Assembly (NCBI GenBank): GCA_009746045.1
Contig: RPFO01000299.1
Span: 124,001 to 188,000, forward strand
Reading direction: 5' to 3'
From: Mesostigma viride
Lineage: Eukaryota; Streptophyta; Mesostigmatophyceae; Mesostigmatales; Mesostigmataceae
DNA length: 64,000 nt
This document shows positions 11,099 to 58,718 of this stretch, one piece after another. Every line of letters begins with the position of its first letter. The stretch's first letter is position 1. The translations under genes were made by a program, and so were the position numbers. The notes under the pieces were generated by a model. It saw nothing but the letters and a program-made list of their open reading frames with translations. It searched no databases and was not told the DNA's origin.

Positions 11099-12650
11099 AA
11101 AGATCATACGGCGCTGCCATGGCAAGAAAACCCAGCAACCCAGCAACGCAGCTATGGCGCAACCCAGAAACGAAAACATTTGCGACAGCCTGCTTCAATA
11201 ATGCTTGGATTCACACAAATGAACAAGTGGGGCTTACCAATCCAATCGATGGTCTCGGCTTGCTCGCAAATCCCTGCAACCAAACGAGAACCGACAAAAA
11301 CACTCACACTCCCCCGTCAGCGACCGGCACCACGACACCAAAAAAGCGACGAAATTATCTGTCTCACACTCCCCCGTCATCGAGCTGCTTGTGGACAACT
11401 ATCTGTCAAAAGCATCCATGTACATACACCGCCATTGCTCACCTCTTTTCACACTCTTCGGCTGCACACAATGGCGTTGCTCAGTCGAATATGGCTGTCG
11501 GGTTGCTAATATCGTTGTCACTTTCGGCCGATGTCGCGAATACCCGCCGTTGATGCTCGGGTGCAAGGTGCATCCACGGTGTCGGTCTTCCAGGAGGGCT
11601 GGAAAGCGCCAACGCAGCACCTGCAATTCAAATTCCCTGGTGCTGGTATGCCGACGCGCAAATGGAATGGCGCGGCGCCTAAAAGGCGCCGCGCGCGGGA
11701 AAAAAATTACGCGCCAAACGATATGGCGCGGCGCCGGGACGGCGCCGCGCTGAAAAATACTTGCAGTCGCAACTGTGACGTGGCGCTGCAGACCACACGG
11801 TAGGGAATTCGCAGCGCCATATATGGCGCCACGCCGACTCCTGACGCCGTGTGGCGCCACATGGACGCGGCGCTGCACACAGCTCGAGCCCATTTTTTCA
11901 CATTCCTGCTACCTGATTGGACGCCTGGCGGAGGAAGCTTTTCACGGCGCGACGCCGAGGGGCTTCAAAAACGTATATAAGCAGGCAAAATTTCTCCGAA
12001 ATTTAATGAACGAGCGCGACGCGGAGACCATGCTAGTGTGCGGAACTGGTGAACCACACCGGTACGGGACAGATTCTTGGCTGATCCTCGTAGTACCTCG
12101 TGAACACGTCTAGTAGGCCCGGGTTCAACTCCCGTCGTAACATTTTTTTTTGGGTTGGTGTGGCAAGCCTATAAAGCAATCCGCAAACCACTACACGGCT
12201 GGTAAGATTTAATATAATTAGCAACCTAATAGCTATATCAAAAATGTTTATGGGCATGGAAATTTTTAATATGTTGATATTAGACTGCAATGAAACGAAT
12301 ATGCAACCTGCCCCCCTATGTTTAATACAATATTATTATTATTATTTGTGGCATGAATATAATAATTGTGTGAAATACAATGCTATGTGCAATATATTGC
12401 TGGTATGCCATGCAATTGTAACCAACAGGTGCAAGACCAAAAGGCGTCTTCAGGGCCCACCTGCTGCGAACAAGAGCTATGGCGGCGGGAGGTGCGTGCA
12501 GGGTTACGGATTTACGGGGTTGTTGACCACCAAATTTGTTGTTACGTGTGTTATGGAAACATTTCAGTCGAATTTCTGGGTTCCAACGGTCGTTAAGGTT
12601 ATAAAAAGTGCGTTGGGATTCGGAAATTCACATCCTGGCGTGTAAAAAAT
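11099..12650. other. unique region, no gene recognised; GGCGCC hairpins and tRNA-like end
   Basis: Several overlapping frames of up to 190 aa exist, but none has recognisable domains or consistent codon character, so I do not call a gene. 11660-11880 is dense in GGCGCC hairpins. 11975-12150 ends with a T-arm-like CCCGGGTTCAACTCCCG and a T9 run. 12150-12640 is AT-rich and contains a decayed palindrome, CCAACGGTCGTTAA, near 12582. Confidence 0.5.
11668..11862. repeat. cluster of GGCGCC-centred hairpins
   Basis: GCGCGGCGCC is inverted as GGCGCCGCGC across a short loop at about 11670-11694 and again at about 11725-11750. GCGCCATATATGGCGC (about 11814-11829) and GTGGCGCCAC (about 11851-11860) are perfect palindromes. 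An A-rich linker (GGGAAAAAAATTACG) separates the first two hairpins. The role is unknown; bidirectional regulatory DNA or a foldback remnant are both possible. Confidence 0.7.
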
Positions 12651-12652
12651 GC

Positions 12653-13200
12653 AGGTGTTGGCGAGTTTTCGGCCCGCTTTCAGGGGTCCAACGGCCGTTG
12701 GGTGTCTAAAATGCATGTGTTAGCGTGTTTCCGGCCCGCTTTCAGGGGCCCAACGGCCGTTGGACGTCGAAAATGCATGTGTTGGCGTGTTTTCGGCCCG
12801 CTTTCAGGGGTCCAACGGCCGTTGGGTGTCGAAAATGCATGTAAAGGGCGTGTTTCAGGCCCACTTTCAGGGGTCCAACGGCCGTTGGGTGTAGAAAATG
12901 CATGTGTTGGCGTGTTTTCGGCCCGCTTTCAGGGGTCCAACGGCCGTTGGGTGTCGAAAATGCATGTGTTGGCGTGTTTCAGGCCCACTTTCAGGGGTCC
13001 AACGGCCGTTGGGTGTCGAAAATGCATGTGTTGGCGTGTTTTCGGCCCGCTTTCTGGGGTCCAACGGCCGTTGGGTGTCGAAAATGCATGTGTTGGCGTG
13101 TTTCAGGCCCACTTTCGGGGTCCAACGGCCGTTGGGTGTCGAAAATGCATGTGTTGGCGTGTTTCAGGCGTACTTTCAGGGGTCCAACGGCCGTTGGGAC
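12653..13200. repeat. 62-bp tandem repeat, nine palindrome-bearing units
   Basis: Each unit reads GAAAATGCATGTGTTGGCG, TGTTT(T)C(A/G)GGCCC, CTTTCAGGGG and then TCCAACGGCCGTTGGG. Perfect palindromes start at 12688, 12750, 12812, 12875, 12937, 12999, 13061, 13122 and 13184, so the period is 61-63 bp. The block ends about 70 bp before the next gene's first ATG and could form its 5' flank. Two alternating subtypes (CGGCCCGC and AGGCCCAC) are visible. Confidence 0.95.
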
Positions 13201-13267: not shown

Positions 13268-16200
13268 ATGCGCGCGGATGCAGGTGAAGCGCACAACAAA
13301 GACCTAAGTCTCAAGTACGTCGAGATCAAGGGCAACCAACTTGCCCTCGACATGGCCAGCGCAATGGAATACTTGCTGAAGGACAACAATCACAAGACTG
13401 AAAACACGAAAACTGCAGTAGGCTTGAGGGCGCTTGAGCGGCTGCCAGGTGCGGTTGTGAAGGTTATGGGGAAACAGTACCGCCCTGCGCTGAAAAGAAA
13501 GGCGTCGGAGTCCTTCGCTCAGGAGGTTGTCGCTAATATCGTGCAAGGTTTCCAGGAATTGGGCAAGTCGGATGAGCACAGGAACGCGAAGTGCGCTGTG
13601 CTGTCAATGTGCTTGGGAAAGGACGGCATGAACAATCAAGGGCATTGCACTCTCGCGCGGCTGCTTCACGTCACGCCCAAGGATATCCAGACCGCAAGGG
13701 GAATGAGGATGGGGGGCGACCTTCCCGCCCTGAAGGCGCCCCTCGTGCTTTACGGTCGGACAAGTTTCCGGAGGAGGTCAAAGACATCGTCGGGAGTTAC
13801 TGGTTGTCAGACCTAAACACGAGGGCGTCTCCCAACCATAAGGACGTGGTCAATGAGTTCGAAAGGAAGGGAAACGCCAGGATCCTCATTTCCTCCCAGG
13901 GCGGAAGGTACTATTTGGACTCGCTTGAAACGATTTACAAGCGGTTCTGTTCTGACGCGTCGCCGTACAAGGGAGGTATCGTGACGACTGCGGACGGGAC
14001 AAGGTACAAGGTGGGGTACACGAAGTTCGTGGAGTTCATGCCCAAGTGCGTAAAGGGCGTGTGGAAGGACCGGGACTTGTGCGCATGCGAAAAGCACGTC
14101 GTCTTCGAGTCCCTGCTCTCTGCCTTCACCAAAGGCGTCAAGGAGTTGAAGAGCACGCTGGAGATCGAGGAGAGGGAGGGTATCCCTTCCGTGCCTGACA
14201 ATGCCCATGATTTCGTTCGACGTTTCACCTGCCACAGGCTGAGAGGGGGGAGGGGGGGCAAGGAGGGGGGAGGACGGGCGGCCCGTTCGTTAACGTCCCA
14301 ATGAACTGCTTGGAAGGGACCTGCAACGAGTGTGGGATTTCCGAGTTCATCGTGACGGACCAGATGAAGGGGTGGACAAAGAAGTACACGTGGTTCGACT
14401 TCGTAAAGGAGGGCACAGCGCCCCGTGGGACGGTAAGCATGTATATTTGCATCGTTGAATATATATATGTAGACTTTCATACTTCCAACGGCCGTTGGCG
14501 TTGGGAAATTCCCAGCTGCTGACTTCCATTCTTCGGTCAATCCATGGTGCGCGGGTGTGTTGTGTTGCAGGAGGAGGATGTGGCGCCGCAAATGAACCTG
14601 CAGCAAAAACTCATCAAGTCAACCCTCTCGGAGCTCCATGAACTCATTACGGCGCGCTTCCCGGAATTCGCCATTCACGTCCATACATGGGCCTGGCAGC
14701 ACCACGCTTACAAGGAGTGCATTGACGTGATGCCGCTGGGAACGGTGGTGGTCCTGATGGACTACTCGGAGAACTATTCGGACCACCTGCAGAAACAGTT
14801 GCAGGCGCAGTACTGGTACCCAAGTAGTTACGTCCTGATGCCGGTGATCGTGATGTACCGTGATCCCGTATCGCTGGAAATCAAAAGGGTGAAGCACGAT
14901 TACATGGGGAAGGACGTACCGAGGAATGCCCAGACCCTGGAGTTCGTGATGAAGAATACCCTTAACGTGCTGAGGGAGGAGGGGGTGGAGGTGAGGAACT
15001 GGATCAGTTGGTCCGACAACTGTAAGGAGCAGTTCCAATCCCGGTATGTGTTGGCGATGGCTGCGGACCTGCTCGAGGCCGACCCCGACTTGGAATCATT
15101 GGAGTGGAACTACTCGTGTGCAGGACATGGGAAGGGGGAGTCGGACGGGGAGGGGGGGACGGTCAAAAGCATCCTCAAAAGAGCGCAGATGCAGGAGGAC
15201 AATCGGAACCTGAATACGGTGGAGGCACTGGTGGCCTACCTGAACCGGGATTGGAGAACCGGCAAAGACTCGAGTCGACCATCGGCACAATCGGACGTGG
15301 TTCGACGGGCATTTCTTCTCGATAACGTAAGTAAAGACAGTTGCTTTCTGGTGGTCAAGTGCAGTTCTATAATTTGTCTCTGGTTACACTTTACAGAGGA
15401 CAGCTTCCTTGATGCAGTTTGAAGTTTCATAAGGCCAACGGCCGTTGGAGCTGGAAAATCGTATAATTGTTGAGTGCCAACGGCCGTTGGAGTTGAGAAA
15501 TGTACTTATATAAAGTTTCCAAGGGCCAACGGCCGTTGGAGTTGGGAAATCTTATAATTGTTGAGTGCCAACGGCCGTTGGAGTTGGGAAATGTGCTGTG
15601 ATGTTGTTTCATGGATTTACAATTGCAGATTCCCACGTCCGGTAAGGAGCGAGGCCCGATCCGAGATATCTCCACGGCACACCAGTGGCGACTGGACAAA
15701 AAGGGCGAGCGGGTCGAGGTGGTTAAGCTCAGGCGTTTTTCATGCTTCAGTTGTGCGGAGTGCCGAGAGGGCAAGTGGACGACATGCCCAAAGATTGGAG
15801 CAGCTCGTCGTGGACTGTAAAACTCCAGGCGAGTAAGTCGCGGAACCCCACGCGATATCCGGGAACCCGCCTGAACCACCTTCAAACGGCAAGAAACGAG
15901 TTGGGGCGTGGTTTGCAGGAGGGGGAGGCCGTCGCAGTCGCATCTGAGAGGGGGCACAAGGACCATGTGCCCGACCACCCGTACTGGTTGGCGAAAGTTG
16001 TTCGAGTCGCCCACCAACTCGACAAGGATGAGTGTTTAAACAAACATACAGGGGGGGGGGCGAGGTTTTTAAGAAAGGCAACTGGGTAATGTACGTAAAA
16101 TACTTCGAGAGGTGCTCCTCCTCCGGATCGGACGCCCGACGCTTCTTCTGGAACCCAGACGACCGAGAACCCTTAACTGCAATCGTGTGCTACCTGAGCG

Positions 16201-19084: not shown

Positions 19085-20537
19085 ACATGCACGCAAGGGG
19101 CGGCTGCACATACACGTACACACACCGCGCACGCAAGGGGCGGCTGCACACACACGTACATCCACCGCGCACGCAAGGGGCAACTGCACACACATGTACA
19201 CACACCATGCACGCAAGGGGCGGCTGCACACACACGTACATCCACCGCGCACGCAAGGGCCGGCTGCACACACACGTACACACACCATGCACGCAAGGGC
19301 CGGCTGCACTCACATGTACATACACCATGCACGCAAGGGGCGGCTGCACACACATGTACACAAACCATGCACGCAAGGGGCTGCTGCACACACACGTACA
19401 CACACAATGCACGCTTGGGGCGACGGCACACACATGTACATCCACCGCGCACGCAAGGGGCGGCTGCACACACACGTACATACACCGCGCACGCAAAGGC
19501 CGGCATGCACACACACGTACACATACAATGCACGCAAGGGGCGACTGCACACAAACGTACATCCACCGCGCACGCAAGGGGCGGCCGCACACACATGTAC
19601 ATCCACCATGCACGCAAGGGGCTGCTGCACACACACTTACACACACAATGCACGCAAGGGGCGACGGCACTCACATGTACATACTGTTGGGCGGCTGCAC
19701 ACACACGTACATACACCGCGCACGCAAGGGCCGGCTGCACACACACGTACATCCACCGCGCACGCAAGGGGCTGCTGCACACACACGTACATACACCGCG
19801 CACGCAAGGGGCGGCTGCACACACACGTACATACACCGCGCACGCAAGGGGCAACTGCACACACATGTACACACACCGCGCACGCTTGGGGCGGCTGCAC
19901 ACACACGTACATACACCGCGAACGCAAGGGGCAACTGCACACACATGTACATCCACCGCGCAACCACGGGGCGGCTGCACACACACGTACATACACCGCG
20001 CACGCAAGGGGCGGCTGCACACATACGTACCTACACCGCGCACGCAAGGGGCGACTGCACACACACTTACACACACAATGCACGCAAGGGCCGGCTGCAC
20101 ACACACGTACACACACCGCGCACGCAAGGGCCGGCTGCACACACACGTACATACACCGCGCACGCAAGGGGCGGCTGCACACACACGTACACACACCGCG
20201 CACGCAAGGGGCGGCTGCACACACACGTACATACACCATGCACGCAAGGGGCTGCACACACACTTACACACACCATGCACGCAAGGGCCGGCATGCACAC
20301 ACACTGGCATACACCGCGCAGGCAAGGGGCGGCTGCACACACGTACATACACCGCGCACGCAAGGGGCAACTGCACACACACGTACACACACCGCGCACG
20401 CAAGGGGCGGCTGCACACACACGTACACACACCATGCACGCAATTGCCGGCATGCACACACACGTACATCCACCGCGCACGCAAGGGGCAACTGCACACA
20501 CATGTACACACACCGCGCACGCTTGGGGCGGCTGCAC
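19085..20537. repeat. 40-bp satellite, block 1
   Basis: About 36 monomers. The core is CGCACGCAAGGGGCGGC followed by TGCACACACACGTACATAC. Variable sites are CGCGC/CATGC, GGGGC/GGGCC, GGCTG/AACTG, CACGT/CATGT and TACAT/TACAC. Because 40 is not divisible by 3 and the unit has few stops, long frames exist on both strands; their peptides repeat every 40 residues. Block 1 ends where a long/short composite element is inserted after CTGCAC. Confidence 0.97.
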
Positions 20538-22005
20538 TTTGTGAGCTCACGCTCGTTCTATCTATGACCTGCGGAAGTCTCAAAGGGGGAGGGGAGGCCG
20601 CAGTAGACAGGTCTGACTTGGTAGCCAGTACTAGGGGGGGGGGTACGGTGATGTGGGGGGGGGGTACCGGGAACGGTACTGCGGACCGGGTCCAATTTGT
20701 TTTGTGGACCGGGGGCAGTCCTGTGGACCGGGGGCGGCGCGGCGCCACTGGCCTGTTGGTCAGTGGGCTGGCGTCCGCCACCCCACCTACGACTAGGTAG
20801 ACGGTGGATACTTAGGGTTGTGGCGGGGCAACAACCACTCCTCTTTGCAGCTGTGTCGACGGCCCACTGACGGCGTGTGTGCACTGCTATGGCGGTGCCG
20901 AATGTAAATCACAGCTACCGGCCTCCGAATTATCATTCGGGGGCCTGGATAATTTAAGGTTATGACGGCTGCGCGACGGGGGTCGGCAGCACCCCAAGAA
21001 ACTGCCATTCGAAGTGCGGGCGGTAGCTGCCAGTGCCAGATTGTTTTATTTTTGCCCGCCCGTTGTACTCGCCACCCCGAGCTCGCGGGAGGGGTCTGGA
21101 TAGACGCGGGAGTGACTCTTGATCGGACAGCTAAGGCGGGGCAATAGTGGTGCTCGGGTGGTAACAGCTACAGGCGGAGGGGAATTACGTCCCAGGCAAG
21201 TTTCGTTGTGGATCACGTGCGCTGGGCCTGGCTAATGAATATCGTCAAGAATAGTGCATGAGCGCGCTATACGAGCATGGGAAGAAGGGGGAATCGAGCC
21301 CCCAGGCCAGCGCAGGAGCGGGAGGGCTGCAGCCCCAGCGCCAGGGGGGGCAGCATCCTAAACAGCCTAACATTTCTTCGTACTAAGTGAGGCGACAGCG
21401 GCCGGCGGCCAGGGCGGAATGGCGGGGTCGTTGCCGCGTAATTTAAGCGGGGACGAGTTGTTGGGACTGGCGGTGCACAGCGGGGAAGGGGAAGGATGTT
21501 AGGGCGGGGCGATAGCGGATCCCAGACGCAGCTGCGTCATTGGGGTGCCGGGGTGCTATGCCTGTGAAGAAAGGTGTACAAAGAATCGCCGAACCCGCAG
21601 GGGCGGCTGCCGAGGGCAGTGCCCACATGGGTGAGAACACCCCCCATAGTGGGGGGTCCCTACGGGGATACGATTGGCTTCCCTCTTGTATTGCCGCCTG
21701 GTTTAATGGAAGCACTGGTAGCGGCAGGGGACAAGGGGGGCGACGAGAAGTCTGGGCCATACGACAGCTTGCGGCCAAGTGGCCAGGTAGTGGGTGCGGG
21801 ATGTTACAAAGCCCAGGTCCTCTTGACTGGCCCAGGTCCTTATGACTGGTATGATGTTTCGGCCCCTGTTGTGTGGCCTAGTTAGCTTAGAGACTGCAGA
21901 TTCTTAGGTTAGCTAATGGCTTGGACGTGTGCCTAACACGCATTTGTAATAAACATGTTTCTCTGGCAGCCCCTCACTCCAATGGAACTAAAGCAGCAAT
22001 TGGAT
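20538..22005 (+). mobile_element. composite element family D, locus 1, long unit
   Basis: This is 1468 bp, oriented from the hairpin end. It begins TTTGT followed by GAGC-TCAC-GCTC (stem bases 6-9 and 14-17) and ends GCAGCAATTGGAT. It carries G-rich stretches near 20636-20720 and no credible ORF. The first ~315 bp and last ~205 bp are shared with the adjoining short unit, and the ~946 bp between are unique to the long unit. It joins the satellite at CTGCAC without duplicated bases. Confidence 0.85.
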
Positions 22006-22556
22006 TTTGTGAGCTCACGCTCGTTCTATCTATGACCTGCGGAAGTCTCAAAGGGGGAGGGGAGGCCGCAGTAGACAGGTCTGACTTGGTAGCCAGTACT
22101 AGGGGGGGGGGGTACGGTGATGTGTGTGGGGGGGTACCGGGAACGGTACTGCGGACCGGGTCCAATTTGTTTTGTGGACCGGGGGCAGTCCTGTGGACCG
22201 GGGGCGGCGCGGCGCCACTGGCCTGTTGGTCAGTGGGCTGGCGTCCGCCACCCCACCTACGACTAGGTAGACGGTGGATACTTAGGGTTGTGGCGGGGCA
22301 ACAACCACTCCTCTTTGCAGCTCCCACCCACCCACCCTTGCTGCCAGTCGGATGTTACAAAGCCCAGGTCCTCTTGACTGGCCCAGGTCCTTATGACTGG
22401 TATGATGTTTCGGCCCCTGTTGTGTGGCCTAGTTAGCTTAGAAACTGCAGATTCTTAGGTTAGCTAATGGCTTGGACGTGTGCCTAACACGCATTTGTAA
22501 TAAACATGTTTCTCTGGCAGCCCCTCACTCCAATGGAACTAAAGCAGCAATTGGAT
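22006..22556 (+). mobile_element. composite element family D, locus 1, short unit
   Basis: This is 551 bp with the same termini as the long unit and is head-to-tail with it (GGAT|TTTGTG). The middle is replaced by CCCACCCACCCACCC (22323-22337), flanked by GCAGC and GCTGC, a small inverted repeat. The satellite resumes with ACACACGTAC, so CTGCAC plus ACACAC restores a normal monomer and no target duplication is needed. Confidence 0.87.
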
Positions 22557-23318
22557 ACACACGTACACACACCGCGCACGCAAGGGCCGGCTGCACACAC
22601 ACGTACATACACCGCGCACGCAAGGGGCAACTGCACACACACGTACACACACCATGCACGCAAGGGCCGGCTGCACTCACATGTACACACACCATGCACG
22701 CAAGGGCCGGCTGCACACACACTTACACACACAATGCACGCTTGGGGCAACGGCACTCACATGTACATACACCATGCACGCAAGGGGCGGCTGCACACAC
22801 ACGTACATACACTCCGCACGCAAGGAGCGACTTCACGCACAGGTACACACACCATGCACGCAAGGTTCGGCTGCACACACATGTACATCCACCGCGCACG
22901 CAAGGGGCGAGTGCAAACACATGTACATACACCGCGCACGCAAGGGGCAACTGCCCACACATGTACATCCACCGCGCACGCAAGGGCCGGCTGCACTCAA
23001 TTGTACATACACCGCCCATGCAAGGGGCGGCTGCACACACACGTACACACACCATGCACGCAAGGGCCGGCATGCACACACAGTACACACACCGCGCACG
23101 CAAGGGGGCCGGCTGCACACACACGTACATACACTCCGCACGCAAGGGGCTGCTGCACACACACTTACACTCACCATGCACGCAAGGGGCGGCTGCACAC
23201 ACACGTACACACACCGCGCACGCAAGGGACGGCTGCACACACACGTACATACACCGCGCACGCAAGGGGCGGCTGCACTTACATGTACACACACCACGCA
23301 CGCAAGGGGCGGCTGCAC
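22557..23318. repeat. 40-bp satellite, block 2
   Basis: About 19 monomers lie between two composite elements. It includes variants such as CAAGGAGCGACTTCACGCAC and CAAGGTTCGGC that recur near 28.0, 31.3 and 63.85 kb. Confidence 0.97.
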
Positions 23319-24527
23319 TATCCGAGCTTTTGCTCACCCTATCTGCGTTATAGCGGGACTACGGAAGTCTGGGGTGCGGCCGAATAGAATTTGCCGCGTA
23401 AGACTAGGAGGAGGAGGTGCGCCGGCTGTGACCGGTAGTGGTTCGTTCCGCCTGTGTGCGGTCTACCGCCTGCGCGCGGTAGAAAGACTTAGAAAATCTG
23501 TACGAATTTGTGAAAACGAACCTTTAATAGCAGTGGCACAAGTGACGGGGGATGGTAGGGGCAGACCTGGCGCAGCGCCAGCGCCAGCGCCGGTACCGCT
23601 GCAATTTCGGTACCAACGCCAGTGCCAGCGCCGCGCCAGCCTGACGGCCCTTGTGGACTAGCATTTAGGCAGACGAGGCAATGGCAGCAAAGCCTCTTTT
23701 GGTCCGCAATTTGCTGGCATATGCTGCCAACGTGACTAATTCGCTATGGCGATTATTAGACGGGCTAACGGCCTTGCCGCTGCGGCGGGAGGGCTGGAAA
23801 TTTAATCAGTAATGTTAGCCGCGCGCAAGGAGAGCGGCGGCTCGAAATTTGGCCCTCTATCGGCCCAGATTGGAGAAGTGGGGTGCATCTAGGTCCGCGG
23901 GGCTGCGAGATGGAAAAATAACATAAAATAATGCACTACGATTTCGTAGACTGAGTGACGAATGAGATAGCGGCCTTCCTGAAGGGATGGAAGCGCAGGA
24001 AATTGAGGCGTCAATTGGCCTGCGGGGCAGCCTGCCCAGTCGCCATGGTTAGAAATCCTCAAGTCCGGACCGGAGTCGGGGGGGACGATACCCCCCCAAC
24101 TTCGCCTTTCCAATGCACGCTCTGCATACCACGTGGGAGGGAACGAGATGCTCGACCCCGCTGGGGACCTTGCCGCCTTGCCATGAGATGTGACGGGGGT
24201 AGCGGCAGCATAGGCGGGGGACGAGCTGGCATGAGAGGGGGGCGCCCTACTAACCGACGGCGACATTGCAGCGGTATCACCGGAATTGACAACAACCCGA
24301 CGTGGCGGATGTGAAACGACGTTCCGGATTTGCTGACGAAGTCGGCCAGGAAGGGAAGGTGGGGAATAGGCATAAGTCCACTTTTGTGGCAGCCACCCAA
24401 AGACCCCCTTTAGCACTTGTTAGGAGCCCTACAGTGCATGTTGGCTCTATTAAGCTGTACTTATTTGTAAAAAACTATTGTTGTCTGGTGCAACCCAAGC
24501 GTCAGTAGGTTAGCGTTAGAAGTGGAT
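23319..24527 (+). mobile_element. composite element family E, long unit
   Basis: This is 1209 bp. It begins TATCC followed by GAGC-TTTT-GCTC (stem from base 6) and ends GTTAGAAGTGGAT. After the hairpin it shares CTATCT and CGGAAGTCT with family D. A GCGCCAGCGCCAGCGCCGG stretch lies near 23575. No ORF with recognisable domains is present. It is inserted at the same satellite position (CTGCAC|ACACAC) as family D. Confidence 0.85.
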
Positions 24528-25129
24528 TATCCGAGCTTTTGCTCACCCTATCTGCGTTATAGCGGGACTACGGAAGTCTGGGGTGCGGCCGAATAGAATT
24601 TGCCGCGTAAGACTAGGAGGAGGAGGTGCGCCGGCTGTGACCGGTAGTGGTTCGTTCCGCCTGTGTGCGGTCTACCGCCTGCGCGCGGTAGAAAGACTTA
24701 GAAAATCTGTACGAATTTGTGAAAACGAACCTTTAATAGCAGTGGCACAAGTGACGGGGGATGGTAGGGGCAGACCTGGCGCAGCGCCAGCGCCAGCGCC
24801 GGTACCGCTGCAATTTCGGTACCAACGCCAGTGCCAGCGCCGCGCCAGCCTGACGGCCCTTGTGGACTAGCATTTAGGCAGACGAGGCAATGGCAGCAAA
24901 GCCTCTTTTGGTCCCCACCCACCCACCCTGAACTTGTTATACCAGTTGTCCAAAAGAGGCCAGGGGAATAGGCATAAGTCCACTTTTGTGGCAGCCACCC
25001 AAAGACCCCCTTTAGCACTTGTTAGGAGCCCTACAGTGCATGTTGGCTCTATTAAGCTGTACTTATTTGTAAAAAACTATTGTTGTCTGGTGCAACCCAA
25101 GCGTCAGTAGGTTAGCGTTAGAAGTGGAT
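24528..25129 (+). mobile_element. composite element family E, short unit
   Basis: This is 602 bp, joined head-to-tail to the long unit (GTGGAT|TATCCG). About 656 bp of the long unit is replaced by a linker with CCCCACCCACCCACCC (24913-24928). That tract lies in the loop of the inverted repeat CCTCTTTTGG ... CCAAAAGAGG. The satellite resumes directly at ACACACGTAC. Confidence 0.87.
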
Positions 25130-28100
25130 ACACACGTACATACACCGCGCACGCAAGGACCGGCTCCACTCACATGTACATCCACCGCGCAACCACGGGG
25201 CGGCTGCACACACACGTACATACACCGCGCACGCAAGGGGCTGCTGCACACACACTTACACACAAAAGGCACGCTTGGGGCGACGGCATTCACATGTACA
25301 TACACCGCGCACGAAAGGGGTGGCTGCACACACACGTACATCCACCGCGCACGCAAGGGGCGGCTGCACACACACATACATACACCATGCACGCAAGGGG
25401 CGAGTGCAAAAACATGTACATACACCGCGCACGCAAGGGGCAACTGCCCACACATGGACATACACTGCGCACGCAAGGGGAGGCTGCATTAACACGTACA
25501 TACACCGCGCACGCAAGGGGCGGCTGCACACACACGTACACACACCATGCACGCAAGGGGAGGCTGCATTAACACGTACATACACCGCGCACGCAAGGGG
25601 CGGCTGCACACACACGTACACACACCATGCACGCAAGGGCCGGCTGCACACACACGTACATACACCGCGCACGCAAGGGGCGGCTGCACACACACGTACA
25701 TACACCATGCACGCAAGGGGCGGCTGCACACACACGTACATCCACCGCGCACGCAAGGGGCAACTGCACACACACGTACATACACCGCGCACGCAAGGGG
25801 CGGCTGCACACACACGTACACACACCGCGCACGCAAGGGCCGGCATGCACACACAGTACACACACCGCGCACGCAAGGGGGCCGGCTGCACACACACGTA
25901 CATACACTGCGCACGCAAGGGGCTGCTGCACACACACTTACACTCACCATGCACGCAAGGGGCGGCTGCACACACACGTACACACACCGCGCACGCAAGG
26001 GACGGCTGCACACACACGTACATACACCGCGCACGCAAGGGGCGGCTGCACTTACATGTACACACACCACGCACGCAAGGGGCGGCTGCACACACACGTA
26101 CATACACCGCGCACGCAAGGACCGGCTCCACTCACATGTACATCCACCGCGCAACCACGGGGCGGCTGCACACACACGTACATACACCGCGCACGCAAGG
26201 GGCTGCTGCACACACACTTACACACAAAATGCACGCTTGGGGCGACGGCACTCACATGTACATACACCGCGCACGAAAGGGGTGGCTGCACACACACGTA
26301 CATCCACCGCGCACGCAAGGGGCGGCTGCACACACACATACATACACCATGCACGCAAGGGGCGAGTGCAAAAACATGTACATACACCGCGCACGCAAGG
26401 GGCAACTGCCCACACATGGACATACACTGCGCACGCAAGGGGAGGCTGCATTAACACGTACATACACCGCGCACGCAAGGGGCGGCTGCACACACACGTA
26501 CACACACCATGCACGCAAGGGCCGGCTGCACACACACGTACATACACCGCGCACGCAAGGGGCGGCTGCACACACACGTACATACACCATGCACGCAAGG
26601 GGCGGCTGCACACACACGTACATCCACCGCGCACGCAAGGGGCAACTGCACACACACGTACATACACCGCGCACGCAAGGGGCGGCTGCACACACACGTA
26701 CACACACCGCGCACGCAAGGGCCGGCATGCACACACAGTACACACACCGCGCACGCAAGGGGGCCGGCTGCACACACACGTACATACACTGCGCACGCAA
26801 GGGGCTGCTGCACACACACTTACACTCACCATGCACGCAAGGGGCGGCTGCACACACACGTACACACACCGCGCACGCAAGGGACGGCTGCACACACACG
26901 TACATACACCGCGCACGCAAGGGGCGGCTGCACTTACATGTACACACACCACGCACGCAAGGGGCGGCTGCACACACACGTACATACACCGCGCACGCAA
27001 GGACCGGCTCCACTCACATGTACATCCACCGCGCAACCACGGGGCGGCTGCACACACACGTACATACACCGCGCACGCAAGGGGCTGCTGCACACACACT
27101 TACACACAAAATGCACGCTTGGGGCGACGGCACTCACATGTACATACACCGCGCACGAAAGGGGTGGCTGCACACACACGTACATCCACCGCGCACGCAA
27201 GGGGCGGCTGCACACACACATACATACACCATGCACGCAAGGGGCGAGTGCAAAAACATGTACATACACCGCGCACGCAAGGGGCAACTGCCCACACATG
27301 GACATACACTGCGCACGCAAGGGGAGGCTGCATTAACACGTACATACACCGCGCACGCAAGGGGCGGCTGCACACACACGTACACACACCATGCACGCAA
27401 GGGCCGGCTGCACACACACGTACATACACCGCGCACGCAAGGGGCGGCTGCACACACACGTACATACACCATGCACGCAAGGGGCGGCTGCACACACATG
27501 TACATCCACCGCGCACGCAAGGGGCGAGTGCACACACACGTACACACACCGCGCACGCAAGGGCCGGCTGCACACACACGTACATCCACCGCGCACGCAA
27601 GGGGCAACTGCACACACACGTACATACACCGCGCACGCAAGGGGCGGCTGCACACACACGTACATCCACCGCGCACGCAAGGGGCAGCTGCACACACATG
27701 TACACACACCGCGCACGCTTGGGGCGGCTGCACACACACGTACACACACCGCGCACGCAAGGGCCGGCTGCACACACACGTACATACACCGCGCACGCAA
27801 GGCCGGCAACTGCACACACACGTACACACACCATGCACGCAAGGGCCGGCTGCACTCACATGTACACACACCATGCACGCAAGGGCCGGCTGCACACACA
27901 CTTACACACACAATGCACGCTTGGGGCAACGGCACTCACATGTACATACACCACGCACGCAAGGGGCGGCTGCACACACACGTACACACACCATGCACGC
28001 AAGGAGCGACTTCACGCACAGGTACACACACCATGCACGCAAGGTTCGGCTGCACACACATGTACATCCACCGCGCACGCAAGGGGCGAGTGCAAACACA

Positions 28101-29968
28101 TGTACATACACCGCGCACGCAAGGGGCAACTGCCCACACATGTACATCCACCGCGCACGCAAGGGCCGGCTGCACTCAATTGTACATACACCGCCCATGC
28201 AAGGGGCGGCTGCACACACACGTACACACACCATGCACGCAAGGGCCGGCATGCACACACAGTACACACACCGCGCACGCAAGGGGGCCGGCTGCACACA
28301 CACGTACATACACTGCGCACGCAAGGGGCTGCTGCACACACACTTACACTCACCATGCACGCAAGGGGCGGCTGCACACACACGTACACACACCGCGCAC
28401 GCAAGGGACGGCTGCACACACACGTACATACACCGCGCACGCAAGGGGCGGCTGCACTTACATGTACACCCACCACGCACGCAAGGGGCGGCTGCACACA
28501 CACGTACATACACCGCGCACGCAAGGACCGGCTCCACTCACATGTACATCCATCGCGCAACCACGGGGCGGCTGCACACACACGTACATACACCGCGCAC
28601 GCAAGGGGCTGCTGCACACACACTTACACACAAAATGCACGCTTGGGGCGACGGCACTCACATGTACATACACCGCGCACGAAAGGGGTGGCTGCACACA
28701 CACGTACATCCACCGCGCACGCAAGGGGCGGCTGCACACACACATACATACACCATGCACGCAAGGGGCGAGTGCAAAAACATGTACATACACCGCGCAC
28801 GCAAGGGGCCACTGCCCACACATGGACATACACTGCGCACGCAAGGGGAGGCTGCATTAACACGTACATACACCGCGCACGCAAGGGGCGGCTGCACACA
28901 CACGTACACACACCATGCACGCAAGGGCCGGCTGCACACACACGTACATACACCGCGCACGCAAGGGGCGGCTGCACACACACGTACATACACCATGCAC
29001 GCAAGGGGCGGCTGCACACACACGTACATACACCGCGCACGCAAGGGGCGAGTGCAAACACACGTACATACACCATGCACGCAAGGGGCGGCTGCACACA
29101 CACGTACATCCACCGCGCACGCAAGGGGCAACTGCACACACACGTACATACACCGCGCACGCAAGGGGCGGCTGCACACACACGTACACACACCGCGCAC
29201 GCAAGGGCCGGCATGCACACACAGTACACACACCGCGCACGCAAGGGGGCCGGCTGCACACACACGTACATACACTGCGCACGCAAGGGGCTGCTGCACA
29301 CACACTTACACTCACCATGCACGCAAGGGGCGGCTGCACACACACGTACACACACCGCGCACGCAAGGGACGGCTGCACACACACGTACATACACCGCGC
29401 ACGCAAGGGGCGGCTGCACTTACATGTACACACACCACGCACGCAAGGGGCGGCTGCACACACACGTACATACACCGCGCACGCAAGGACCGGCTCCACT
29501 CACATGTACATCCACCGCGCAACCACGGGGCGGCTGCACACACACGTACATACACCGCGCACGCAAGGGGCTGCTGCACACACACTTACACACAAAATGC
29601 ACGCTTGGGGCGACGGCACTCACATGTACATACACCGCGCACGAAAGGGGTGGCTGCACACACACGTACATCCACCGCGCACGCAAGGGGCGGCTGCACA
29701 CACACATACATACACCATGCACGCAAGGGGCGAGTGCAAAAACATGTACATACACCGCGCACGCAAGGGGCAACTGCCCACACATGGACATACACTGCGC
29801 ACGCAAGGGGAGGCTGCATTAACACGTACATACACCGCGCACGCAAGGGGCGGCTGCACACACACGTACACACACCATGCACGCAAGGGCCGGCTGCACA
29901 CACACGTACATACACCGCGCACGCAAGGGGCGGCTGCACACACACGTACATACACCATGCACGCAAGG
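25130..29968. repeat. 40-bp satellite, block 3, with higher-order repeats
   Basis: About 121 monomers in higher-order units. The marker ACGCAAGGACCGGCTCC occurs at 25151, 26113, 26995, 28519 and 29481, so spacings are 962, 882, 1524 and 962. The 962 form is the 882 form with two extra monomers. Within a unit, irregular monomers (GGGGGCCGGCTG, CATTAACACG, GAAAGGGGTGG, GCAACCACGG) keep a fixed order. The largest plus-strand frame (25275-29822) is an artefact. The block ends at the CAAGG used by the foldback element. Confidence 0.96.
29964..29968. other. target-site duplication CAAGG, left, foldback element
   Basis: CAAGG precedes AGTTACG, and the same five bases follow CGTAACT at 30794-30798. 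CAAGG belongs to the satellite core. Confidence 0.85.
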
Positions 29969-30174
29969 AGTTACGTTAAATAGTGCCGGAACCTTTTGCC
30001 GCCTGAGGCAAATCGGTCCGTAACACTATTTTGCCCGGAATAACCACTTCCGAGCACCCAAGTTAATTCGGCCGAATTAACTTGGGTGCTCGGAAGTGGT
30101 TATTCCGGGCAAAATAGTGTTACGGACCGATTTGCCTCAGGCGGCAAAAGGTTCCGGCACTATTTAACGTAACT

Positions 30175-30306
30175 AAAACCTGGCCTCGTGGAGGGGGGAC
30201 GAAGAGCCCGAGACATCCGCCTAGGCCGCTGAGCACGCACCACTAAATGCGCCGGAGCTGCCTCAGTGAGGATTCGAACCCCTGACCTCCAAGGTGCACA
30301 GGTTTT
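30175..30306 (-). repeat. X module with tRNA T-arm-like motif, copy 1
   Basis: The module is bounded by AAAACCTG and CAGGTTTT. On the minus strand it contains GGTTCGAATCC (complement of 30270-30280), a good pol III B box, followed by CTGAGGCA, which resembles an acceptor 3' end. No complete cloverleaf in normal order was found. The copy at 30456-30587 is inverted. Confidence 0.55.
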
Positions 30307-30455
30307 AGTTACGTTAAATAGTGCCGGAACCTTTTGCCGCCTGAGGCAAATCGGTCCGTAACACTATTTTGCCCGGAATAACCACTTCCGAGCACCCAAG
30401 TTAATTCGGCCGAAAGGTTCGGCGGCAAAAGGTTCCGGCACTATTTAACGTAACT

Positions 30456-32751: not shown

Positions 32752-32764
32752 TGGTATCGAGCGG
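32752..32764 (+). promoter_or_regulatory. element 3 primer-binding site
   Basis: TGGTATCGAGCGG follows the LTR directly. TGGTATC matches the start of the initiator-Met tRNA primer site typical of Copia elements. Confidence 0.75.
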
Positions 32765-35016: not shown

Positions 35017-35596
35017 TTCATGTCCCACGTAGCTCCCACAAAAACCAGCATCTTCATTAAAACAATAAGTGGAAGCATACATGTGACACTAATTGACATG
35101 CCCGGAGGCACGCCGTTCAAGGCCCTTCATGAAGTACGTTGCCCTAGAGGCAACCAAGACAAGGGTGGGTGGGTGGGGAGCAAAGAAAGAGGCCGACAAA
35201 ACCAGCCAGAGCGGCTTTTAGTCGCAAAACCTCCCTTATCCCTAGCTAACTGACGTCATTAAACCCTTATGTTTAGTGGATGCTAGTAAGACGCTAACCG
35301 TACAGACCGGGGGTAGAATATCCCGAATCTGCACGGCTAGTATTAAATAATGCGTAGGTTGTTCTTTTCAGGGGCACTGCACCTCACGCCCCGTTCCGCC
35401 CGGGTATAATCAACCCAAGCGCGGAACGCACATTTTATTTAATTCATTTTTCAACCATGCACTATATTGCATCTACTAATCACAAAAGCTCTAGCCAAAC
35501 AGCTACGAGTAAACACTGCGACCTATAAGCCGCTCATCCAGCGGCCTCTTGTTCCCGCATTCACGTATAGAAGAAACTCCGTTCAAAGAACCCCGA
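35017..35596 (-). mobile_element. composite element family F, locus 1, short unit
   Basis: 580 bp. On the plus strand it starts TTCATGTCCCACG and ends GTTCAAAGAACCCCGA. Read from the other strand, the hairpin GTTC-TTT-GAAC starts at base 6. The internal linker has GTTGCC-CTAGA-GGCAAC followed by GGGTGGGTGGGTGGGG (35163-35178). Otherwise it equals the ends of the adjacent long unit. No ORF is credible. Confidence 0.88.
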
Positions 35597-36978
35597 TTCA
35601 TGTCCCACGTAGCTCCCACAAAAACCAGCATCTTCATTAAAACAATAAGTGGAAGCATACATGTGACACTAATTGACATGCCCGGAGGCACGCCGTTCAA
35701 GGCCCTTCATGAAGTACGTTGCCCAATCACCCCCGCCCTGGCTTTCCCTTGAAGCCGCACTCCACCTTGCTCGTTGTCACAAGTGACCGCCCTGCCGCAA
35801 AACGGGAGCCCCCCCACATCGGGAGGCGTGTGCCCGGCGGCTGTGGATGCATGGCCAGGCCCAAAAAGGCCCAGCGCATTTGCACTGCGATTGCGCACGG
35901 CCAGCCTATCATGACCCCTCTCGGGGCCCCGAGTCGGTACCGCTATGGCCGTCTCCCCATAGACCCGGGGTGCTTCGAGAAAAAACGTGGACCTAGCCCA
36001 GGCCCCGCCAGCCCGGATGCCCGAGGCCACAGCCCCAGGCACCTGGCTGAACGAGAGTCCGTTCAGCCAAGACCGCATTCCCCCCGAGGTTTCTATGCGT
36101 GGGGAAAAAATTTCTAGCTTAGACGCTTTTCCCATCGCCGTCCCCAGCCCCAACCACCCCCCCTCGGCGGAAGGCAATTGCAAAGTTTGCTGGCCAGCAG
36201 CAATTTCCGAAGAAAAAGCCGCAGGCCGCGGACCGAGACACGGGTCGCCAGTGCCAGCCATCCGGCTCCAACCCGGGGTGCAAGCATCCCCAGGTACGGA
36301 GCACCAGCTCGCGCACTGGGCCGACCAAGCGACAGTTGAGCACCTGTCACGGCATCCGGCCCACCAAAGACCCCAAGCTGGGGAAAAGGTGCGGACCGGA
36401 GGTAATCTTTTTCTTTTCTTTTAGTTAACCGGGCGAGGAACTACGCCTGGCCGGTTAACAACTGGAAGTCTCACCACTGGCCAAGTGGCCAGTGCAACCA
36501 GTGCTTTTGGGATTTTGCTCCGCAGCACCCATAGCTGCGGCTGCCGCCGCAACGACAACGAGCAAAGAAAGAGGCCGACAAAACCAGCCAGAGCGGCTTT
36601 TAGTCGCAAAACCTCCCTTATCCCTAGCTAACTGACGTCATTAAACCCTTATGTTTAGTGGATGCTAGTAAGACGCTAACCGTACAGACCGGGGGTAGAA
36701 TATCCCGAATCTGCACGGCTAGTATTAAATAATGCGTAGGTTGTTCTTTTCAGGGGCACTGCACCTCACGCCCCGTTCCGCCCGGGTATAATCAACCCAA
36801 GCGCGGAACGCACATTTTATTTAATTCATTTTTCAACCATGCACTATATTGCATCTACTAATCACAAAAGCTCTAGCCAAACAGCTACGAGTAAACACTG
36901 CGACCTATAAGCCGCTCATCCAGCGGCCTCTTGTTCCCGCATTCACGTATAGAAGAAACTCCGTTCAAAGAACCCCGA
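35597..36978 (-). mobile_element. composite element family F, locus 1, long unit
   Basis: 1382 bp, joined head-to-tail to the short unit (CCCCGA|TTCATG). The central ~835 bp (35725-36559) is absent from the short unit. No protein with recognisable domains is encoded. After its last base the interrupted LTR resumes, and the two LTR fragments add to exactly 530 bp. The insertion therefore neither duplicated nor deleted host bases. Confidence 0.88.
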
Positions 36979-37519: not shown

Positions 37520-37532
37520 TGTATTCATTGCA

Positions 37533-54342: not shown

Positions 54343-55725
54343 TCGGGGTTCTTTGAACGGAGTTTCTTCTATACGTGAATGCGGGAACAAGAGGCCGCTG
54401 GATGAGCGGCTTATAGGTCGTAGTGTTTACTCGTAGCTGTTTGGCTAGAGCTTTTGTGATTAGTAGATGCAATATAGTGCATGGTTGAAAAATGAATTAA
54501 ATAAAATGTGCGTTCCGCGCTTGGGTTGATTATACCCGGGCGGAACGGGGCGTGAGGTGCAGTGCCCCTGAAAAGAACAACCTACGCATTATTTAATACT
54601 AGCCGTGCAGATTCGGGATATTCTACCCCCGGTCTGTACGGTTAGCGTCTTACTAGCATCCACTAAACATAAGGGTTTAATGACGTCAGTTAGCTAGGGA
54701 TAAGGGAGGTTTTGCGACTAAAAGCCGCTCTGGCTGGTTTTGTCGGCCTCTTTCTTTGCTCGTTGTCGTTGCGGCGGCAGCCGCAGCTATGGGTGCTGCG
54801 GAGCAAAATCCCAAAAGCACTGGTTGCACTGGCCACTTGGCCAGTGGTGAGACTTCCAGTTGTTAACCGGCCAGGCGTAGTTCCTCGCTCGGTTAACTAA
54901 AAGAAAAGAAAATGATTACCTCCGGTCCGCACCTTTTCCCCAGCTTGGGGTCTTTGGTGGGCCGGATGCCGTGACAGGTGCTCAACTGTCGCTTGGTCGG
55001 CCCAGTGCGCGAGCTGGTGCTCCGTACCTGGGGATGCTTGCACCCCGGGTTGGAGCCGGATGGCTGGCACTGGCGACCCGTGTCTCGGTCCGCGGCCTGC
55101 GGCTTTTTCTTCGGAAATTGCTGCTGGCCAGCAAACTTTGCAATTGCCTTCCGCCGAGGGGGGGGTGGTTGGGGCTGGGGACGGCGATGGGAAAAGCGCC
55201 TAAGCTAGAAATTTTTTCCCCACGCATAGAAACCTCGGGGGGGAATGCGGTCTTGGCTGAACGGACTCTCGTTCAGCCAGGTGCCTGGGGCTGTGGCCTC
55301 GGGCATCCGGGCTGGCGGGGCCTGGGCTAGGTCCACGTTTTTTCTCGAAGCACCCCGGGTCTATGGGGAGACGGCCATAGCGGTACCGACTCGGGGCCCC
55401 GAGAGGGGTCATGATAGGCTGGCCGTGCGCAATCGCAGTGCAAATGCGCTGGGCCTTTTTGGGCCTGGCCATGCATCCACAGCCGCCGGGCACACGCCTC
55501 CCGATGTGGGGGGCTCCCGTTTTGCGGCAGGGCGGTCACTTGTGACAACGAGCAAGGTGGAGTGCGGCTTCAAGGGAAAGCCAGGGCGGGGGTGATTGGG
55601 CAACGTACTTCATGAAGGGCCTTGAACGGCGTGCCTCCGGGCATGTCAATTAGTGTCACATGTATGCTTCCACTTATTGTTTTAATGAAGATGCTGGTTT
55701 TTGTGGGAGCTACGTGGGACATGAA
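54343..55725 (+). mobile_element. composite element family F, locus 2, long unit
   Basis: 1383 bp, in the opposite orientation to the copy at 35597-36978. It begins TCGGGGTTCTTTGAACGG, with the hairpin stem at bases 6-9 and 13-16, and ends GGGACATGAA. It is nearly identical to the first locus, with scattered differences such as CTCGCTCGGTT and a one-base length change. Confidence 0.88.
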
Positions 55726-56305
55726 TCGGGGTTCTTTGAACGGAGTTTCTTCTATACGTGAATGCGGGAACAAGAGGCCGCTGGATGAGCGGCTTATAGG
55801 TCGTAGTGTTTACTCGTAGCTGTTTGGCTAGAGCTTTTGTGATTAGTAGATGCAATATAGTGCATGGTTGAAAAATGAATTAAATAAAATGTGCGTTCCG
55901 CGCTTGGGTTGATTATACCCGGGCGGAACGGGGCGTGAGGTGCAGTGCCCCTGAAAAGAACAACCTACGCATTATTTAATACTAGCCGTGCAGATTCGGG
56001 ATATTCTACCCCCGGTCTGTACGGTTAGCGTCTTACTAGCATCCACTAAACATAAGGGTTTAATGACGTCAGTTAGCTAGGGATAAGGGAGGTTTTGCGA
56101 CTAAAAGCCGCTCTGGCTGGTTTTGTCGGCCTCTTTCTTTGCTCCCCACCCACCCACCCGTGTCTTGGTTGCCTCTAGGGCAACGTACTTCATGAAGGGC
56201 CTTGAACGGCGTGCCTCCGGGCATGTCAATTAGTGTCACATGTATGCTTCCACTTATTGTTTTAATGAAGATGCTGGTTTTTGTGGGAGCTACGTGGGAC
56301 ATGAA
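55726..56305 (+). mobile_element. composite element family F, locus 2, short unit
   Basis: 580 bp, joined to the long unit at CATGAA|TCGGGG. It carries CCCCACCCACCCACCC (56144-56159), then GTTGCC-TCTAG-GGCAAC. It ends exactly where the element 5 small ORF resumes. Confidence 0.88.
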
Positions 56306-56705: not shown

Positions 56706-57254
56706 ATCCAATTGCTGCTTTAGTTCCATTGGAGTGAGGGGCTGCCAGAGAAACATGTTTATTACAAATACGTGTTAGGCACACGTCCAAGCCATTAGCT
56801 AACCTAAGAATCTGCAGTTTCTAAGCTAACTAGGCCACACAACAAGGGCCGAAACATCATACCAGTCATAAGGACCTGGGCCAGTCAAGAGGACCTGGGC
56901 TTTGTAACATCCGTCTGGCAGCAAGGGTGGGTGGGTGGGAGCTGCAAAGAGGAGTGGTTGTTGCCCCGCCACAACCCTAAGTATCCACCGTCTACCTAGT
57001 CGTAGGTGGGGTGACGGACGCCAGCCCACTGACCAACAGGCCAGTGGCGCCGCGCCGTCCCCGGTCCACAGGACTGCCCCCGGTCCACAACACAAATTGG
57101 ACCCGGTCCACAGTACCGTCCCCGGTACCCCCCCCCCACAACACCGTACCCCCCCCCCTAGTACTGGCTACCTAGTCAGACCTGTCTACTGCGGCCTCCC
57201 CTCCCCCTTTGAGACTTCCGCAGGTCATAGATAGAACGAGCGTGAGCTCACAAA
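56706..57254 (-). mobile_element. composite element family D, locus 2, short unit
   Basis: 549 bp, inverted relative to locus 1. The plus strand begins ATCCAATTGCTGC and ends GTGAGCTCACAAA. GGGTGGGTGGGTGGG lies at 56925-56939 between GGCAGCAA and AGCTGC. It is slightly diverged from locus 1 (for example ACACAACAAGGGCC for ACACAACAGGGGCC). Confidence 0.88.
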
Positions 57255-58718
57255 ATCCAATTGCTGCTTTAGTTCCATTGGAGTGAGGGGCTGCCAGAGA
57301 AACATGTTTATTACAAATACGTGTTAGGCACACGTCCAAGCCATTAGCTAACCTAAGAATCTGCAGTTTCTAAGCTAACTAGGCCACACAACAAGGGCCG
57401 AAACATCATACCAGTCATAAGGACCTGGGCCAGTCAAGAGGACCTGGGCTTTGTAACATCCCGCACCCACTACCTGGCCACTTGGCCGCAAGCTGTCGTA
57501 TGGCCCAGACTTCTCGTCGCCCCCCTTGTCCCCTGCCGCTACCAGTGCTTCATTAACCAGGCGGCAATACAAGGGGGAAGCCAAAAGTATCCCCGTAGGG
57601 ACCCCCCACTGCGGGGGGGTTCTCACCCATGTGGGCACTGCCCTCGGCAGCCACCCCTGCAGGCTCGGCAATTCTTTGTACACCTTTCTTCACAGGCATA
57701 GCACCCCCGGAACCCCAATGACGCAGCTGCGTCTGGGATCCGCTATCGCCCCGCCCTAACATCCTTCCCCTTCCCCGCTGTGCACCGTCAGTCCCAACAA
57801 CTCGTCCCCGCTTAAATTACGCGGCAACGACCCCGCCATTCCGCGCTGGCCGCCGGCCGCTGTCGCCTCACTTGGCACGAGGAAATGTTAGGCTGTTTAG
57901 GGTGCTGCCCCCCCTGGCGCTGGGGCTGCAGCCACCCCGCTCCTATGCTGGCCTGGGGGCTCGATTCCCCCTTCTTCCCATGCTCGTATAGCGCGCTCAT
58001 GCACTATTCTTGACGATATTCATTAGCCAGGCCCAGCACATACGATACACAACGAACTTGCCTGCGGCGTATTCCCCCTCCGCCTGTAGCTGTTGCCACC
58101 CTAGCACCACGACTGCCCCGCTTTAGTTGTCCGATCAAGAGTCACTCCCGCGTCTATCCAGACCCCTCCCGCGAGCCCGGGGTGGCGAGTACAACGCAGC
58201 AAAAAATAAAACAATCTGGCACTGGCAGCTACCGCCTGCACTTCGAACGGCAAGTTATTGGGGTGCTGCCGACCCCCGTCGCGCAGCCGTCATAACCTTA
58301 AATAAACCAGGCCCCCGAATAATAATTCGGAGGCCGGTAGCTGTGATTTACATTCGGCACCGCCATAGCAGTGCACACACGCCGTCAGTGGGCCGTCGAC
58401 ACAGCTGCAAAGAGGAGTGGTTGTTGCCCCGCCACAACCCTAAGTATCCACCGTCTACCTAGTCGTAGGTGGGGTGACGGACGCCAGCCCACTGACCAAC
58501 AGGCCAGTGGCGCCGCGCCGTCCCCGGTCCACAGGACTGCCCCCGGTCCACAACACAAATTGGACCCGGTCCACAGTACCGTCCCCGGTACCCCCCCCCC
58601 ACAACACCGTACCCCCCCCCCCTAGTACTGGCTACCTAGTCAGACCTGTCTACTGCGGCCTCCCCTCCCCCTTTGAGACTTCCGCAGGTCATAGATAGAA
58701 CGAGCGTGAGCTCACAAA
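57255..58718 (-). mobile_element. composite element family D, locus 2, long unit
   Basis: 1464 bp, adjoining the short unit head-to-tail. The hairpin end (GAGCGTGAGCTC then ACAAA) is at 58718. It is homologous to 20538-22005 with more substitutions than are seen between the two family F loci. No ORF is credible. Confidence 0.87.

Follow-up and report, generated by a model that had tools for sequence, protein, structure and literature searches.

Paired long and short units in Mesostigma viride as probable non-autonomous SDR retrotransposons of the YR (DIRS) order

Introduction

The closest described systems to the sequences discussed here are retrotransposons built on the split-direct-repeat (SDR) plan. 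In this plan the repeats run A1-B1-A2-B2, with A2 equal to A1 and B2 equal to B1, and it is already known from green algae, where TOC and Kangaroo carry it (PMC4157794). The range of TOC, Kangaroo and PAT together also takes in nematodes. Ngaro elements of Cafeteria burkhardae are written A1-[ORFs]-B1A2B2, and the solo AB repeats that accompany them are reported as recombination products (PMC8547959); the SDRs of Xenopus Ngaros measure 236 and 152 bp (PMC9210276). VIPER places A1 at its 5' end and B1, A2 and B2 at its 3' end, with some copies 100% identical (PMC6681497). For DIRS1, a 3-bp junction and a model of replication have been described (PMC3266345).

What is new here is, of course, not the plan but a non-autonomous tyrosine-recombinase (YR) variant of it with a conserved motif at an internal seam. 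A window of 64,000 nucleotides from Mesostigma viride (contig RPFO01000299.1, positions 124,001 to 188,000; the whole stretch analysed) contains five composites, each consisting of a long unit and a short unit with shared termini. Each composite is very probably one non-autonomous SDR retrotransposon of the YR (DIRS) order with the layout A1-int-B1-A2-x-B2, for which larger, similar-ended elements supply in trans the RT-RNaseH-YR protein that moves it.

Like TOC, Kangaroo and PAT, the composites read A1-...-B1A2-...-B2, with A1 equal to A2 and B1 equal to B2, and their coding relatives, like those elements, carry YR and probably also reverse transcriptase (RT) (PMC4157794). Classical SDR elements, however, are written with A2 and B2 abutting, whereas here a spacer of 27-49 nt, x, with a (CCCN)4 tract lies between them. 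The composites are also only 1.8-2.0 kb long and without recognised coding. In their coding relatives, unlike TOC, Kangaroo and PAT, no methyltransferase domain was recognised in three ORFs scanned, and the RT-like, RNase H-like and YR parts stand in one ORF (L159, L160). Ngaro shares the A1-[ORFs]-B1A2B2 layout, the lack of a methyltransferase and the solo AB repeats (PMC8547959), and its SDR lengths in Xenopus are similar to those here (PMC9210276). Ngaro differs in having RT/RH and YR in separate ORFs, and the parts of these two accounts that were consulted (PMC8547959, PMC9210276) contain no mention of a C3N tract. VIPER of kinetoplastids is described with the same repeat plan in other hosts (PMC6681497). 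In contrast to DIRS1 with its 3-bp junction (PMC3266345), no obvious core is common to the ends of the composites and their targets.

Structure of the composites

A preliminary description of the window had reported long units joined to short units at five loci, in three families. Re-reading and aligning the loci confirmed this structure at all five, and the three families do have a common plan. Family F1 comprises 20538-22556 (F1a) and 56706-58718 (F1b), F2 comprises 23319-25129 (F2a), and F3 comprises 35017-36978 (F3a) and 54343-56305 (F3b). Every locus parses as A1-int-B1|A2-x-B2, with the following parts.

20538..20852, + strand: F1a A1, from alignment of repeat copies; hairpin GAGC-n4-GCTC at start
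20853..21798, + strand: F1a int; no recognised coding
21799..22005, + strand: F1a B1; TGTAA about 61 nt before its end
22006..22322, + strand: F1a A2
22323..22349, + strand: F1a x; starts CCCACCCACCCACCC
22350..22556, + strand: F1a B2
23319..23704, + strand: F2a A1
23705..24360, + strand: F2a int
24361..24527, + strand: F2a B1
24528..24913, + strand: F2a A2
24914..24962, + strand: F2a x; starts CCCACCCACCCACCC
24963..25129, + strand: F2a B2
36560..36978, - strand: F3a A1
35727..36559, - strand: F3a int
35597..35726, - strand: F3a B1
35178..35596, - strand: F3a A2
35147..35177, - strand: F3a x; starts CCCACCCACCCACCC
35017..35146, - strand: F3a B2
54343..54761, + strand: F3b A1
54762..55595, + strand: F3b int
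55596..55725, + strand: F3b B1
55726..56144, + strand: F3b A2
56145..56175, + strand: F3b x; starts CCCACCCACCCACCC
56176..56305, + strand: F3b B2
58403..58718, - strand: F1b A1
57462..58402, - strand: F1b int
57255..57461, - strand: F1b B1
56940..57254, - strand: F1b A2
56913..56939, - strand: F1b x; starts CCCACCCACCCACCC
56706..56912, - strand: F1b B2

The long unit is A-int-B and the short unit is A-x-B; long and short are, in other words, the two stretches between repeated ends. Their lengths (long plus short) are 1468+551 and 1464+549 in F1, 1209+602 in F2, and 1382+580 and 1383+580 in F3. Counted from the hairpin end, the long unit precedes the short at all five loci, just as had been described. 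A measures 315-317 bp in F1, 386 in F2 and 419 in F3, and B measures 207, 167 and 128-130 bp. Within one element the two A copies, and the two B copies, are 99.05-100% identical. The int is 941-946 bp in F1, 656 in F2 and 833-834 in F3, and the x is 27, 49 and 31 bp. The int segments of F1a and F1b, aligned over 947 columns, show 49 mismatches and 7 gap columns.

The families have little sequence in common. BLAST comparison of F1, F2 and F3 with one another gave no matches inside the elements except short pieces; the satellite flanks also match. The composites have a terminal hairpin followed by 5 nt. In F1 and F2, TGTAA stands shortly before B ends; it is missing from the corresponding place in F3. 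Rfam, applied to the window with gathering thresholds, gave no match, a tRNA scan found none, and two spliced-leader motifs were absent from the window.

The surroundings are themselves repetitive. A satellite with a 40-bp unit occupies 19089-20537, 22557-23318, 25130-32200, 51977-53472 and 60544-63990. Nested elements at 32222-35016, 37036-51976 and 53476-60540 have direct repeats at their borders (491, 484 and 700 bp, with 99.8-100% identity), and Copia-type ORFs around them run at 33066-34136 and 48125-49552. Both F3b and F1b sit inside 53476-60540, while F3a adjoins the end of a repeat exactly (35016/35017). Tandem arrays at 36-1344, 12640-13198 and 15422-15594 have units with the palindrome CCAACGGCCGTTGG or most of it.

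Pairs, solitary units and arrays in the genome

The census was directed at the whole 439.9-Mb assembly, and its counts are lower bounds. Whole-element queries bias it towards pairs, because solos score below them; the counts for F1 longs and for F3 therefore speak to pairs, and not to the absence of solos. Read in this way, full pairs account for 31 of 46 F1 matches (40 of 419 candidates scored) and for 32 of 46 F3 matches (40 of 864 scored). The F3 copies are 99-100% identical, implying that this family was recently active. For F2, the span 1-1811 was recovered in 23 of 45 matches and 1-1803 in one (40 of 53 candidates scored).

A query with the F1 short unit (40 of 541 candidates scored) found B directly upstream of the short in 41 of 41 cases, and hence none that was solitary. 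In 35 of these int was seen before that B; in the other six the examination reached as far as B. Full pairs of the whole-element census include 24 of the 41. Eight of the 17 others were read, giving five plain pairs, one long-long-short array, and the loci L166 and L167; three more have int in front by coordinates. One of the six, at C1502:382209-383484, belongs by its coordinates to an F1 array in whose first unit A and B are no more than some 210 bases apart, perhaps through a deletion in int.

Solitary units do exist in F2. One solo long (1-1209, contig C2145) and three solo shorts (two on C1801, one on C557; spanning 1209-1811 twice and 1208-1811 once) were found, and the solo long and two of the three shorts, when read, have exact ends. 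The remaining 17 of the 45 F2 matches are truncated, interrupted by insertions or part of arrays; one of them, 229-1209 on C1690, may be a solo long cut at its 5' end. Long-long-short arrays occur at L165 and L177 and, judged by coordinate overlap, on C1468 (F2). Two F2 shorts on the same strand lie 1.7 kb apart at C1801:4969775-4972683, and the one that was read is a solo. An F2 copy on C1879 (L183) stops at the A2 edge and gives way to unrelated sequence, and four other F2 matches, one of them in the C1468 array, stop at most 40 nt from that edge.

The partial F1 matches are of several kinds. L171 is a nested insertion, L170 an assembly gap, and L166 and L167 a segmental duplicate pair starting inside int, while L168, L169 and L172 are copies shortened at the 3' end. 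Deletion of the end of the short unit, or internal shortening of B2, recurs (L168, L169, L172; C2113, C1998, C1868, C113).

The preliminary description had found no single unit and no two longs at any locus. This holds in the window; genome-wide it gives way to the F2 solos and the arrays L165, L177 and C1468. Nor is the pair obligate, as had been proposed: pairs dominate the scored matches, yet F2 has its one solo long and three solo shorts. Many solitary units would have spoken against the pair as the mobile entity; among the scored matches there are few.

Concerted evolution and exact insertion

The two A copies of an element, and the two B copies, evolve in concert. Seven informative sites in A, across 13 F1 loci with two A copies, show no discordance within any locus, a result matched by 0 of 2000 shuffles; two informative sites in B, across ten F1 loci, likewise show none, matched by 20 of 2000 shuffles. 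Because F1 loci share subfamilies, these sites are not independent, and the two A copies that L165 contributes to the test are those of its long-long-short array. Other differences within a locus are few: L121 has two in A and one in B, and L169 has one in A. The informative positions extend from 82 to 244 in A and from 68 to 143 in B, which means that homogenisation is not limited to the extreme ends.

The satellite, in turn, permits insertion to be examined at base resolution. When the flanks of F1a, F2a, L122, L125 and L127 are joined, they match the 40-bp unit at 40, 40, 39, 39 and 40 of 40 positions, and the match worsens when bases are removed or added. Insertion at these five sites was exact, with neither duplication nor loss of target. 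This check is possible at five of eight loci, those in satellite, since L123, L126 and L128 lie outside it. F3a has AAT on either side, perhaps a coincidence, perhaps a 3-base duplication. The satellite is a repeated landing place, with F1a, F2a and L127 at the identical base of its unit; its pattern was not found in viral contigs.

The suggestion that the pair itself is the transposing entity is thus borne out by the same SDR plan at all five loci, the concert of A1 with A2 and of B1 with B2, and exact insertion.

A C-rich tract at the edge of A2

At the edge between A2 and x, x begins with CCCnCCCnCCCnCCC; its four C-runs are kept in all three coding clades, and its spacers vary in two. The exact form CCCACCCACCCACCC occurs five times in the 64 kb, always at the start of an x, where shuffles lead one to expect 0.01 occurrences. 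This form follows A2 in F1, F2, F3, L160, L161 and L162. The L159 type has CCCGCCCACCCTCCC in 15 occurrences (some loci overlap), and further variants are CCCACCCGCCCTCCC in L171, CCCACCCGCCCACCC in L146 and CCCCCCCCCCCTCCC in L155. At the loci examined, where related copies are counted many times, single-base spacers vary and the four C-runs are constant, a pattern suggestive of selection on the form of the tract. A degenerate version also matches C-rich stretches away from any seam, of which the window and L126 have two each.

Before the tract, A mostly ends T-rich: CTCTTT in F1, F2, F3 and the L159 type, TTTCTTTT in L160, CAGTTTTC in L161 and L162, and CTTTTT in L141. On the opposite strand the tract is a (GGGN)4 quadruplex motif, and such motifs are among the most stable known.

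The tract might mark the edge where copying of A stops. A bolder version, possible but on balance doubtful, makes the (CCCN)4 tract a working part of YR-retrotransposon replication. Here, (GGGN)4 in the first-strand cDNA would stop or redirect the polymerase exactly at the end of A2, and the whole of A would be copied end to end in each cycle. Were this true, a quadruplex stop would account for the end of repeat identity at the tract and for the concerted evolution of A1 and A2 across most of their length. It might also explain why insertion seems to go through the new B|A joint and not through the internal joint. Searches of open-licence literature on non-autonomous SDR elements and on quadruplexes in YR retrotransposons listed no title on such a tract.

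Viral contigs have the C-tract at no fewer than 120 loci. Inspection by eye found no architecture like that of the composites among the matches listed from a k-mer repeat screen of these loci. At two of the loci, L028 and L080, short repeats flank the tract on both sides.

Coding relatives

Three families of large ORFs have seams of this kind: L159 (1099 aa), L160 (1017 aa) and L161 (756 aa, starting within the RT part). The three align with one another, with the homologue P0003 and with P0004, and in this alignment the IDD, the RNase H-like D/E and the YR motif (RHGG...Y) are invariant. P0005, a Mesvir1 gene model, is identical at 483 of 483 residues to part of the L160 ORF; a dinoflagellate origin, to which a Prorocentrum entry among protein matches had pointed, was set aside on this ground. 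The YR region matches the XerD profile with an E value of 6.6e-6. With PF00589, the tyrosine-recombinase profile, 150 of 150 scored places lie above the cut-off (824 candidates); four far stronger PF00589 matches (E 7e-23 to 1e-44) fall on C2011 and C1532, possibly contaminant contigs of bacterial origin.

Profiles speak less clearly for the other half of the protein. RVT_1 on P0003 stays below the cut-off (E 0.026), a Ty3 RT match has an E of 0.27, and the Mesostigma ORFs scanned reached no Pfam RT profiles other than Copia-type; the L159, L160 and L161 ORFs had no RT match at all. From their aligned motifs, however, RT and RNase H are likely present in the coding relatives, whose proteins are here read as RT-RNaseH-YR fusions. 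In these three ORFs Pfam recognised neither gag nor methyltransferase, and no rve integrase was found in them. Among viral contigs, 103 stretches fit a pattern for RT-YR protein relatives, none of which was confirmed.

Around these ORFs the repeats recur. In L164/L161 the order is A1, ORF, B1, A2, x, B2, with 2 mismatches in 509 between A1 and A2 and 1 in 146 between B1 and B2; ahead of the 756-aa ORF, the RT part is out of frame. L164 has extra A copies, so that A1 is there an assignment (the nearest upstream same-strand copy without a tract after it). L160 has the B1-A2-x-B2 seam, no A1 that could be found, and a Copia-type ORF upstream. The hairpin GAGC-n3-GCTC stands at the start of its A2, and TGTAAT lies upstream of the ...TGGATT in which its B ends; F1 and F2 are alike in outline. 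The L174 protein, in two pieces, is 96.8 and 98.0% identical to that of L160, and the likeness of L174 to F1 amounts to 94% over 35 bp at the A2/x seam and to 83% over 46 bp in B. The B|A joint of F3 is similar to that of L159 (75.5% over 94 bp), and F2 resembles the coding elements in hairpin, end motif and C-tract alone. These resemblances are partial: among the coding elements examined, none matches F1, F2 or F3 closely along the whole of both ends. The composites are nevertheless best read as non-autonomous derivatives of large coding elements with similar ends. In L159, at about 4939-5400, the seam is followed by a short B-like piece and then an inverted copy of A2, forming a long palindrome.

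The ORFs also bear on classification. Since no methyltransferase family was recognised in the 1017, 1099 and 756 aa ORFs, these elements are not filed as PAT or DIRS1 proper and are, in that respect, Ngaro-like. The repeats of the composites are direct, unlike the inverted terminal repeats, with an internal complementary region, of DIRS1-like elements.

Alternative readings

Tandem copies are a known by-product of rolling-circle transposition, as the preliminary description noted, and a Helitron- or Replitron-like element with long plus short as its tandem product would share several features with the composites: a terminal hairpin followed by 5 nt, head-to-tail copies including a few long-long-short arrays, and no target duplication at the sites tested. 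Helitrons, however, have the form 5' TC ... hairpin-CTRR 3' and insert between A and T. The composites, read in the Helitron direction, end in ...ACAAA, ...GGATA and ...CCCGA, not in CTRR, and their insertions are not between A and T. When the five window loci and the F1 loci L122, L123 and L125-L128 were compared with Helitrons in both directions, ends, hairpin spacing and target all misfit. Circles running from origin to origin should, furthermore, leave single units, yet B precedes all 41 scored F1 shorts; and elements with the same seam encode a tyrosine recombinase together with RT-like and RNase H-like motifs. Helitrons, HINEs and Replitrons thus differ from the composites in ends, target and partner enzymes, and it is most improbable that the pairs are rolling-circle by-products.

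The B-A block, at 522-553 bp and homogenised as LTRs are, could instead be seen as a permuted LTR, the composites then being remnants of LTR retrotransposons. Such a reading has very little probability. The element is cut inside B|A rather than at an LTR end, the five tested sites show no target duplication, and the partner encodes a tyrosine recombinase, with no rve integrase in the three ORFs scanned. Penelope-like elements were set aside together with LTR elements, the absence of target duplication and the partner enzymes fitting neither. That long and short are independent elements inserted side by side, or brought together by assembly, would accord with the solo longs and solo shorts of F2. 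But the B|A joint is exact to the base in the units read, diagnostic variants are common to both halves of each element, and full pairs stand at many separate places in an assembly (442 Mb as published) made from PacBio reads and optical maps (PMC6947507). Chance neighbours or misjoins are, accordingly, scarcely credible. The SDR reading, one YR retrotransposon per composite, is retained in what follows.

A possible route of replication

Transcription would run from A1 to B2. This direction is suggested because the L160 and L161 ORFs run that way and because TGTAA, a polyadenylation signal of green algae, is found close to where B ends in F1 and F2, if not in F3. A start near the T-rich edge motif is a guess. 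An argument from the L165 array, whose start lies 16 nt ahead of the A edge, was dropped, since a Copia-type ORF lies beside that A remnant and a Copia insertion is the likelier cause of where the array starts.

The later steps are modelled on DIRS1 (PMC3266345). An RNA without the outermost ends would be reverse transcribed, as in the published model for the DIRS order, with the internal B1-A2 joint then serving as the template from which the missing ends are restored. The product would close into a circle with a B|A joint, and the recombinase would insert it at that joint. Although the two B|A joints of such a circle would be equal, an F1 short comes first in its element in none of the 41 cases scored; the joint used for insertion is therefore probably marked by replication itself. 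Solo longs and solo shorts could arise by recombination, B1 with B2 and A1 with A2, by likeness to the solo AB repeats of Cafeteria (PMC8547959).

Significance

How YR retrotransposons copy and close their ends has so far been modelled mainly from sequence. In the Mesostigma genome at least three families supply numerous 2-kb derivatives, much alike and with no recognised genes. These reduce the problem to its cis parts, namely A and B with their B|A joint, and perhaps the C3N tract. Natural tests come with them, in the concert of the repeats, the exact empty sites in satellite, the solo longs, the solo shorts and the long-long-short arrays. The seam motif, for its part, is a concrete and mutable candidate for the step that defines the edge of the repeat.
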